Positions 15,080-26,864 of a stretch of 64,000 nt of DNA are shown piece by piece (the stretch's first letter is position 1; every line of letters begins with the position of its first letter). The DNA is taken from positions 124,001 through 188,000 of the forward strand of contig JASBUG010000023.1 of assembly GCA_030148025.1 (NCBI GenBank), in the 5' to 3' direction. The notes below the pieces were generated by a model, which worked only from the letters and a program-made list of their open reading frames with translations, was not told the DNA's origin and did not search any database. Origin of the DNA: Flavobacteriaceae bacterium (lineage in GTDB: Bacteria; Bacteroidota; Bacteroidia; Flavobacteriales; Flavobacteriaceae). Position numbers and translations under genes: made by a program.

Positions 15080-15171
15080 CTGATATGTGTTATTGTTTTA
15101 GAGGACAGATGTAATTCGCTATGCAACAATTTTTAACGACATAAATCTCGTTCGCTCATTTCATACTACGA

Positions 15172-15220
15172 AGTTAATGGTTAATAGTGAAAAGCTAATA
15201 GTAAATATTGAAAAGTTGTA
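15172..15220. repeat. Degenerate heptamer-like repeat (GTTAATRGTGAAAAG type)
   Basis: The intergenic segment has irregular copies of GGTTAATAGTGAAAAG-like words (AGTTAATGGTTAATAGTGAA, GCTAATAGTAAATATTGAAA). They resemble the cleaner 7-base repeats next to the four-helix-bundle gene at 25112-25195. No gene is present here. Confidence 0.35.
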
Positions 15221-24235: not shown

Positions 24236-25102
24236 TTGAAAGAAAACTTAGACGATAAGTGGTTATATACCATATCCTCAAAGCAATCGCTGTTTCAACT
24301 AAATTTTAAAGAAATTTGGCGCTACAGAGACCTTTTGCTTTTGTTTGTAAAACGTGATATTGTTACGGTTTATAAGCAAACTATTTTAGGGCCTTTGTGG
24401 TATGTTATTCAGCCGTTATTTACCTCAGTTATTTTTACATTGATATTTAATAATCTAGGACAGATCAAAACGGGAGGTATTCCACCTTTTTTGTTTAACC
24501 TTGCTGGTATTACTTTATGGAACTACTTTAAAGAATGCCTTACAGGAACGTCAAATACCTTTACTAAAAATCAGAATATTTTTGGAAAAGTATATTTTCC
24601 AAGAGTAATCATGCCAATGTCCGTAACTATTTCAAATTTGTTAAAGTTTGTAATACAATTAGGAATATTTGCAGCTTTTTATGTGTATTTCGTTGCAATG
24701 GGCCATGATATAACTCCAAATGTTAATGTGTTACTTTTTCCGCTTTATGTATTAATGATGGCTTTGTTAGGTTTAGGCTTAGGAATGTTGTTGTCTGCAA
24801 TGACTACCAAATATCGTGACCTAAATATATTAGTTGGTTTTGGTGTACAATTGTTAATGTATGTATCTGCTGTTCCTTATCCATTGGAAGAAGCAAAACT
24901 TAAATTTCCAAAAGTCGTAGCCAATTTGGTAGAGTATAATCCGCTTTCACAAATTATAGAAGGTTTTAGGAATATGTTACTTGATACAGGGATGTTTAGT
25001 TTGGAAAAGTTGTTATACACCTTTTTTATTAGCTTAATAATATTCTTGTTTGGATTGCTTATTTTTAATAAAACCGAGAAATCGTTTATTGATACTGTTT
25101 AG
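24236..25102 (+). CDS. wzm: Wzm-like polysaccharide ABC exporter permease
   Basis: Membrane half of an ABC-2 type exporter that flips a completed lipid-linked polysaccharide to the periplasm. The 288-residue protein has a cytoplasmic start (FKEIWRYRDLLLLFVKRDI, then TVYKQTILGPLWYVIQP) and about six membrane helices, ending LSQIIEGFRNMLLDTG and a final helix, as in Wzm/RfbA. A TTG at 24236 is the apparent start. Its ATPase partner is not directly adjacent: a four-helix-bundle gene with repeats lies in the 490 bases between them. Confidence 0.93.
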   Translation: MKENLDDKWLYTISSKQSLFQLNFKEIWRYRDLLLLFVKRDIVTVYKQTILGPLWYVIQPLFTSVIFTLIFNNLGQIKTGGIPPFLFNLAGITLWNYFKECLTGTSNTFTKNQNIFGKVYFPRVIMPMSVTISNLLKFVIQLGIFAAFYVYFVAMGHDITPNVNVLLFPLYVLMMALLGLGLGMLLSAMTTKYRDLNILVGFGVQLLMYVSAVPYPLEEAKLKFPKVVANLVEYNPLSQIIEGFRNMLLDTGMFSLEKLLYTFFISLIIFLFGLLIFNKTEKSFIDTV

Positions 25103-25111
25103 GTTGGTGAA

Positions 25112-25195
25112 AGGTTAAGAGTGAGAGGTGAAGGGTTAAGGGTGAGAAGTGAACGGTGAAGGGTGAGAAGTGAAGGGTGAAGGGTTAAGAGTGAA
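25112..25195 (+). repeat. Four 21-bp tandem units (12 heptamers, GGTGAAG type) before the four-helix-bundle gene
   Basis: Exactly four 21-base units fill this stretch, each made of three 7-base words such as GGTGAAG, GGTTAAG, GGTGAGA and AGTGAAC. The array ends two bases before the ATG at 25198. An inverted copy of the same words (CTCACAGTTCACC, 25566-25578) lies just behind the gene. Confidence 0.85.
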
Positions 25196-25197
25196 AA

Positions 25198-25554
25198 ATG
25201 ATTATGGATCATAAAAAGTTAGATGCATGGAAATATAGTATGGATTTGGTAGAGAAGGTTTATCAAATAACATCGGTATTTCCAGATATTGAAGCTTATG
25301 GTTTAACAAGTCAGATAAGAAGAAGTGCTGTTTCTATTCCTTCTAATATTGCAGAAGGTGCTGCTAGAGATTCTAATAAAGAGTATATTCGATTTTTAAA
25401 TATATCAATAGGTTCTTTAAGCGAATTAGAAACACAGATTATAATTGCAAAGCGATTGGATTACCTTTCAGGAAATAATGAAGTGTTAGTGGATATCATT
25501 AAATTAAGAAAAGTAATTATTGGTTTAAAAAAGTATTTAAAAAACAACAGTTAA
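25198..25554 (+). CDS. Four-helix-bundle protein (23S rRNA intervening-sequence / S23 family)
   Basis: Small helical protein of 118 residues in the family named after proteins encoded inside 23S rRNA intervening sequences. Family motifs are clear: HKKLDAWKYSMDLVEKVY, YGLTSQIRRSAVSIPSNIAEG, and the LNISIGSLSELETQIIIAKRL helix. Function is unknown; relatives occur scattered in genomes and distant ones assist diversity-generating retroelements. An ATG two codons further in is an alternative start. It interrupts the wzm-wzt pair and is bounded by heptamer direct repeats in front and an inverted copy behind, which looks like an inserted cassette. No reverse transcriptase or template repeat is nearby. 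Confidence 0.9.
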   Translation: MIMDHKKLDAWKYSMDLVEKVYQITSVFPDIEAYGLTSQIRRSAVSIPSNIAEGAARDSNKEYIRFLNISIGSLSELETQIIIAKRLDYLSGNNEVLVDIIKLRKVIIGLKKYLKNNS

Positions 25555-25565
25555 CTTAAAAACAG

Positions 25566-25578
25566 CTCACAGTTCACC
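25566..25578 (-). repeat. Inverted copy of the heptamer repeat behind the four-helix-bundle gene
   Basis: CTCACAGTTCACC is the reverse complement of GGTGAACTGTGAG, close to the GGTGAAG-GGTGAG words in front of the gene. It lies 11 bases after the stop codon and 15 before wzt. Confidence 0.55.
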
Positions 25579-25592
25579 AAAAACTATTCTCT

Positions 25593-26864
25593 ATGGTACA
25601 AAGTGATATAATCTTAAAAGCCGAAAATATATCAAAACAGTATCGTCTTGGTGTTATTGGAACAGGTACGTTGAGTCATGATCTAAACAGGTGGTGGCAT
25701 ACCATTAGAGGAAAACAAGATCCTTATCTAAAAGTAGGTGAAACTAACGATAGAGGTACTAAAGGAGAAAGTCAATATGTTTGGGCACTACGCAATATAA
25801 CTTTTGAAGTAAAACGTGGGGAAGTTCTAGGAATCATAGGAAAAAATGGAGCAGGAAAATCTACTTTGTTAAAAATATTGTCTAGAGTTACTGGTCCAAC
25901 TACAGGAGAAATAAAAACTAAAGGACGCATTGCTTCGTTATTAGAGGTTGGAACAGGATTTCACCCTGAAATGACAGGGCGAGAAAATATTTTCTTGAAC
26001 GGTGCTATTTTAGGAATGACTAAAAAAGAGATTGCGTCTAAACTTGATGAAATTATTGAGTTTAGTGGTTGTGAACGCTATATAGACACACCAGTTAAGC
26101 GCTATTCGTCAGGGATGAAAGTTAGATTGGCATTTGCTGTAGCAGCACATTTAGAGCCAGATATTTTGGTAGTTGATGAGGTTTTGGCAGTTGGTGATGC
26201 TGAATTTCAAAAAAAAGCAGTAGGAAAGATACAAGACATTTCTAGAGGTGAAGGCAGGACCGTTCTTTTTGTAAGTCATAATATGGCGGCAGTAAAAAAC
26301 TTATGTTCTAAAGGAATGGTGCTTGATAATGGTGAAATAAGTTTTACAGGAGGTATAGAAGATTGTATAAATCATTACTTAAAAAAATATTCTTACTCTG
26401 GGGTTAATAAAAATTGCATAAAAAAAGGAGCGAAAAATATAATTGTAGATAATGTTAAGTTCATGTCTAATAAAAAAACAATGATTGCTACAGGAGAACC
26501 TTTAGAGATTATGTTTTATTTGAAGGGAGATATGAATTTGTTAAAGAATAATTTACGATTAGACTTTAAAATTGATGACATTTATAAAAATAGAATTGCT
26601 TGGTTTAGCTCTTCAATTAATGTTGTTAAAAAGAATATAGGTGATTCTCAGGAGAACAAAATTGTTTTTAAGCTAAAAAAGATGCCATTAAATGTTGGCC
26701 AGTATAGCTTATCGTATGTTCTCTATGCAAATCAAGAGATTCAAGAAAATGCTCAGGAATATTTGAATTTTGATGTTTTAGAAGGGGTGTATTATAATAA
26801 CTCTACAATTAATATAACACCTAAGCATTCGCAAATATTATTGGATTATGAGGTATATTGTTAG
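25593..26864 (+). CDS. wzt: Wzt-like polysaccharide ABC exporter ATPase with C-terminal glycan-binding domain
   Basis: ATPase of the exporter whose permease is the Wzm gene upstream. Residues about 1-250 form the nucleotide-binding domain: Walker A GKNGAGKST (83-91), the YSSGMKVRLAF signature, Walker B DILVVDEVLAVGD and the switch histidine in FVSHNM. The region about 255-423 is an extra beta-rich domain of the Wzt C-terminal type, which in characterised exporters recognises the modified non-reducing end of the chain. The 423-residue length fits this two-domain form. It implies that the exported chain carries a terminal modification; a putative methyltransferase gene lies two genes downstream. 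Confidence 0.92.
   Translation: MVQSDIILKAENISKQYRLGVIGTGTLSHDLNRWWHTIRGKQDPYLKVGETNDRGTKGESQYVWALRNITFEVKRGEVLGIIGKNGAGKSTLLKILSRVTGPTTGEIKTKGRIASLLEVGTGFHPEMTGRENIFLNGAILGMTKKEIASKLDEIIEFSGCERYIDTPVKRYSSGMKVRLAFAVAAHLEPDILVVDEVLAVGDAEFQKKAVGKIQDISRGEGRTVLFVSHNMAAVKNLCSKGMVLDNGEISFTGGIEDCINHYLKKYSYSGVNKNCIKKGAKNIIVDNVKFMSNKKTMIATGEPLEIMFYLKGDMNLLKNNLRLDFKIDDIYKNRIAWFSSSINVVKKNIGDSQENKIVFKLKKMPLNVGQYSLSYVLYANQEIQENAQEYLNFDVLEGVYYNNSTINITPKHSQILLDYEVYC

Follow-up and report, generated by a model that had tools for sequence, protein, structure and literature searches.

Matched inverted heptamer arms around a four-helix-bundle gene between wzm and wzt point to a slowly mobile operon cassette

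In the window—a 64,000-nucleotide stretch of Flavobacteriaceae DNA—two genes of a polysaccharide exporter enclose a third. The left neighbour, wzm (24236–25102, forward strand), encodes an ABC-2 type polysaccharide exporter permease (PF01061, E 3e-18) with homologues in 29 other genomes and ends in a stop codon at 25100–25102. The right neighbour, wzt (25593–26864, forward strand), has its ATG at 25593 and encodes an ABC transporter ATPase with a Wzt_C-like tail (PF00005, E 5e-23; PF14524, weak). Wedged between these host genes, as the original prediction had recognized, is a four-helix-bundle gene of the S23 or 23S rRNA intervening-sequence family (25198–25554, forward strand; PF05635, E 6e-36), which encodes 118 amino acids and for which an alternative ATG at 25204 is possible. 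An array of 12–13 heptamers of the types GGTGAAG, GGTTAAG and AGTGAGA (25106–25195, forward strand) sets in 4 nt past the wzm stop codon, extends up to the ATG at 25198 and is read as GGTGAAA GGTTAAG AGTGAGA GGTGAAG GGTTAAG GGTGAGA AGTGAAC GGTGAAG GGTGAGA AGTGAAG GGTGAAG GGTTAAG AGTGAAA. TRF resolves it either as 12.9 copies of a 7-mer (67% match) or as 3.8 copies of a 21-mer (89% match). The array had been described as twelve heptamers arranged in four exact 21-bp units; the array itself is real, but its units, being 89% alike, are near-copies rather than exact ones. Its lag-7 signal lies beyond chance (p ~0.005 in dinucleotide shuffles), and it constitutes the sole non-coding lag-7 run at strict threshold in 400 kb of the window's genome. 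Behind the gene, inverted heptamers were read on the reverse strand (25566–25578; CTCACAGTTCACC, reverse complement GGTGAACTGTGAG), with a best match to the upstream arm of 10/11 bases. Three further PF05635 genes of the same genome also lie between operon genes—a fadJ-like gene and a thiolase gene, two metH halves, and moaE and moaCB—and their heptamer-like arms are composed of other words. Elsewhere in the window, a solo heptamer array without a four-helix gene (15171–15214; TTAATGG TTAATAG TGAAAAG CTAATAG TAAATAT TGAAAAG) stands directly ahead of the start of a minus-strand gene and resembles a gene-less arm.

The 118-residue protein belongs to the family, its PF05635 match scoring 123 bits against a curated cut-off of 33.8. 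A match to PDB entry 2gsc (E 7e-33) is accompanied by an AlphaFold2 model of four helices (pLDDT 96) that Foldseek superimposes on the same entry with a TM-score of 0.94. The closest solved structures, 2gsc and 2rld, contain five chains per entry, and a Xanthomonas relative has been described as a ring-like homopentamer (PMC4990558). No integrase, transposase or nuclease motif was found in the protein by a Pfam search, in which PF05635 was the sole match. Comparison of congeners shows purifying selection on the protein (dN/dS 0.02–0.13 in most pairs). Avd, the accessory protein of diversity-generating retroelements, shares the fold (4dwl and 8ube chains, TM up to 0.79), albeit with weak E-values; a relation between Avd and PF05635 has already been noted (PMC10053308). 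A retroelement reading with a reverse transcriptase acting in trans was rejected, as no reverse transcriptase domain (RVT_1) was found in the window's genome, which is 88% complete.

A family survey was based on 243 PF05635 loci, 230 of which were testable for arms; the collection scan relied on alignment A2, the divergent alignment A1 having no conserved stretch. Across the 230 loci, lag-7 identity reaches 0.404 upstream (z about 33) and 0.401 downstream of the gene (z about 29), with echoes at lags 14, 21 and 28. Moreover, the upstream arm of a locus recurs in inverted form downstream of the gene, the match scoring 12.3 as compared to 6.8 for permuted partners (z 54). The inverted copy that had been proposed behind the gene in the window is thereby borne out at the level of the family; the 10/11 match by itself ranks no higher than the 87th percentile among cross-locus matches. 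The pattern is also present in a phylum sample. In addition, 37 non-Bacteroidota loci, including Proteobacteria, Chloroflexi, Acidobacteria and one CPR genome, yield z values of 15, 12 and 18 for upstream periodicity, downstream periodicity and inverted match. No 7-periodicity was detected at PF05635 loci inside the gene or 600 bases away from it, nor in PF13366 genes used for comparison, and the lag-7 identity at 264 other gene starts of the same loci is 0.282 as opposed to 0.404. Period 7 alone is enriched, periods 5, 6 and 8–12 are not. The word varies from locus to locus around a loose common core, T-N-A-R, and the detectable length of an arm is typically about 5 units. Heptamers are the rule in the flanks of homologues, at least one arm feature being present at the 5% level in 196 of 230 loci; the remaining 34 (about 15%) have no detectable arms.

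The placement of these units within operons is strongly biased. In 199 of 243 loci the unit is co-directional with both neighbouring genes, both neighbours being opposite in only 9, and the gaps to the neighbours are short (median 59 and 49 nt, 243 loci). The stop codon falls in phase with the array in 38 of 131 cases, with 19 expected; an origin of the words by copying from the target stop codon was considered and discarded, since this excess, though real, is too weak to account for them. In pairs of loci at different sites, similarity between the proteins predicts the words only weakly, and only for the closest pairs (9.0 versus 7.1). When genomes are compared at one and the same site, the upstream arm fits its own downstream arm better than that of the relative (12.0 versus 9.8, p 4e-7). 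The two arms thus change together, as exemplified by two congeners, L248 and L262, whose genes are 91% identical and in which several bases are altered alike in both arms; at the same site, a third congener (L257) has a four-helix gene that is more distantly related, and its words differ. The process by which two inverted arms separated by about 400 bp drift in concert is itself unexplained.

One explanation for this symmetry is an RNA element resembling the 23S rRNA intervening sequences, in which base pairing between the arms within the operon's RNA builds a long stem around the gene, RNase III cuts this stem so that the insert is tolerated, and selection on the pairing maintains the match between the arms. 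The sense-orientation bias (199 versus 9) accords with such an element, as does the fact that the gene family is common to 23S rRNA intervening sequences, one of which, that of Coxiella, is excised by RNase III and has heptamers upstream of its S23 gene (PMC4990558). Selection through pairing predicts that differences between arms compatible with G-U pairs on the sense strand outnumber those producing A-C, but no such excess was observed; the counts are reversed (139 versus 221), and no G-U excess emerged where A-richness is not a confounding factor (T/C 55 versus C/T 69). Selection for transcript pairing is therefore not supported, and the explanation appears rather unlikely. A process acting at the DNA level is the favoured inference for the matching of the arms.

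Empty and filled sites were found at the locus itself as well as elsewhere. In 16 other genomes, wzm and wzt are adjacent without the four-helix gene, separated by a gap of at most 65 nt, and a four-helix gene is present in two other wzm–wzt loci. In one of these, L108 (2310–2985), it is damaged by an in-frame stop and followed in tandem by an incomplete second copy (187 nt, 97%), which takes in the end of wzm; the other is L122. In L095, which has the nearest wzm relative, the wzm–wzt gap spans 405 nt and holds the heptamer array AGAGACATGAGACTAGAGATAAGAGAATAGAG along with additional repeats, without a four-helix gene. Clean empty/filled pairs occur within one family and within one genus. At the PhoH site of family f35, some genera carry the cassette, and G158 and G170 have a clean junction; G127 and G143 bear a solo array although their congeners G115 and G188 are filled, and G150 has a gene-less heptamer hairpin. 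The FixC site is filled in G115, G127, G143, G188 and G135, consists of overlapping stop and start codons (ATGA) in G154, G166 and G178, and in G150 harbors a gene-less hairpin whose word is identical to that of its PhoH-site hairpin. At the rluD site, an insert of 541 nt with a now frameshifted cassette in G150 corresponds to 18 nt in its congener G178; no clear target-site duplication was recognized at this pair. This rluD cassette and a second one in G150 are 84% identical from the left end TTTTGTAAGG through the end of the right arm and are unlike outside. With similarity bounded by the arms, these two copies establish that the cassette moved as a unit. In 93 of 116 cases the best match occupies the corresponding site; most same-site pairs therefore look vertically inherited, and movement is rare. 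Taken together, the empty wzm–wzt sites and the empty/filled pairs with cassette-limited ends lend good support to the small mobile cassette inferred in the original prediction.

TRAP binds spaced GAG/UAG repeats, and by analogy the arrays might serve as an autoregulatory leader: a ring-shaped protein would bind heptamers in its own mRNA and thereby control translation, the cassette being immobile. In favour of this mechanism, the arrays occupy the 5′ leader and repeat a shared T-N-A-R core at 7-nt spacing; their typical detectable length is about 5 units, and the entries of solved relatives hold five chains each. A leader does not account for inverted arms past the stop codon that are just as strong, and the same-site gene-less hairpins, clean empty sites and whole-unit movement speak against immobility, leaving this mechanism rather improbable.

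Arrays lacking a gene are abundant in G150, where 400 kb contain 41 non-coding 7-periodic runs as compared to 0–6 at other periods, 37 of them away from any PF05635 gene. These 37 arrays resemble the arms of the 12 cassettes resident in the same genome (16.5) more than those of 12 random cassettes (10.9 ± 0.6; 0 of 5000 draws as high). Gene-less arrays are rare in the window's genome and in G154, and those of G154 share no words with its resident cassettes; the satellite relation consequently rests on a single genome. Within that limit, the satellites of G150 appear analogous to the REPIN/RAYT pattern. Neutral simple-sequence slippage in non-coding gaps, to which the gene would be irrelevant, is compatible with variable array lengths, locus-specific words and the existence of gene-less arrays, but it can hardly be sustained, because it offers no reason for period 7 alone to be enriched, cannot yield matched inverted arms flanking one gene family in many phyla, and is refuted in the main by control genes devoid of the pattern.

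On balance, the feature between wzm and wzt is best read, with some doubt remaining, as a single copy of a cassette that hitchhikes in operons and moves slowly, its ring-shaped protein probably working on the arms of the cassette itself. Movement and arm structure are observed; binding and catalysis are inferred. The cassette consists of a left arm of locus-specific heptamers, the PF05635 gene and, as right arm, the same heptamers inverted; on this reading it inserts as a whole into short gaps between co-directional operon genes, presumably depending on host transcription. By inference from the solved relatives, the protein would form a pentameric ring. Its targets may be the arms as DNA, where sites with the consensus T-N-A-R recur every 7 nt, and it might bring both arms together. 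Such bridging could give rise to new copies of the cassette, as well as of gene-less hairpins bearing the same word, much as RAYT serves REPINs. The activity that would cut and join DNA has not been identified and may be supplied by the host. The data, including the words that gene-less arrays and resident cassettes share in G150, are compatible with the suggested repeat-binding protein that would act on its own flanks, binding itself remaining an inference.

Intervening sequences with an S23 ORF are known from the 23S rRNA genes of, e.g., Coxiella and Leptospira. They share with the cassettes the protein family and an ORF between inverted repeats, a trait met in the window by a short inverted arm and in the family at z 54. 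In contrast to them, the window's cassette does not lie in a 23S rRNA gene but between wzm and wzt, and cassettes generally sit in protein-coding operons, have heptamers on both sides with a locus-specific word, give rise to gene-less derivatives and encode a protein under strong purifying selection. In the Coxiella intervening sequence, tandem GACAGAT heptamers precede the S23 ORF in a copy number that varies between strains (PMC4990558). REPIN/RAYT systems combine a gene with inverted repeats and scattered gene-less hairpins of the same repeat (Bertels and Rainey 2011, PMC3116915). The likeness lies in gene-less hairpins that share the repeat of the resident gene, seen in G150 only; unlike RAYTs, the cassette protein has no Y1 (HUH) tyrosine transposase domain (PF05635 being its only Pfam match), and the cassette carries tandem arrays of 7-nt units in place of REP palindromes. 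IS elements and MITEs are marked by defined ends, empty sites and target-site duplication; empty sites and cassette-limited ends were found for the cassettes, and no target duplication was recognized. These likenesses and differences support the statement that the cassette works like REPIN/RAYT or an intervening sequence; they do not support the statement that it is a RAYT, an rRNA intervening sequence or a diversity-generating retroelement.

Intergenic heptamer repeats have been reported as GGGNATC in Xanthomonas and in Nostoc, with many inverted GGGAATC pairs between aligned ORFs in Xanthomonas (Rehm 2015, PMC4692102), and as TAACTGA arrays (MacGregor 2015, PMC4679880). Term searches of both papers found no link between the repeats and the S23 family; the PF05635 cassettes of Xanthomonas and Luteimonas (L194 and L179) have GGGAATC-type arms like the Xanthomonas repeats. 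In the literature searched, subscription papers excluded, prior knowledge comprises fragments only, from Coxiella and Xanthomonas, which neither PMC4990558 nor PMC4692102 generalizes, and no paper tying S23 genes in general to heptamers was found. It is conceivable, though the evidence falls short of making it the expected outcome, that a single class of mobile element spread across the bacteria unites S23/IVP cassettes with 23S rRNA intervening sequences, the heptamer hairpins of Xanthomonas and perhaps further heptamer repeats. Its ring-shaped protein, lacking a known nuclease domain, would act on inverted heptamer arms that match each other and change fast, and would keep satellite hairpins going. 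What the S23/IVP family does and how it moves have been open questions since intervening sequences were first described. A two-sided hallmark found across phyla provides the concrete hypothesis that the arms are the substrate, may account for the scattered reports of heptamer repeats, and brings the question within reach of experiments on a 118-residue protein and 90 bases of DNA.

L030 and L058 have an upstream arm of the 6-mer AGTCTC instead of a 7-mer; the downstream arm of L030 consists of heptamers, an apparent switch of period in one arm. Some cassettes, 9 of 243 as compared to 0.3 in shuffles, share a conserved GTAAG(G)...CTTAC leader; it is located upstream of the gene in L241, L256, L264, L145, L196 and L348, and at the left end of the moved unit in L348/L349. 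At PF13366 loci (PDDEXK_3, GxxExxY; L369, L370, L373 and L385 among them), small genes are flanked by inverted arms (z 6.9) with the near-constant word CACAGAG/CTCTGTG and without a 7-nt period; these genes make up a second family of cassettes, parallel to the first, in which the fold is that of a nuclease.
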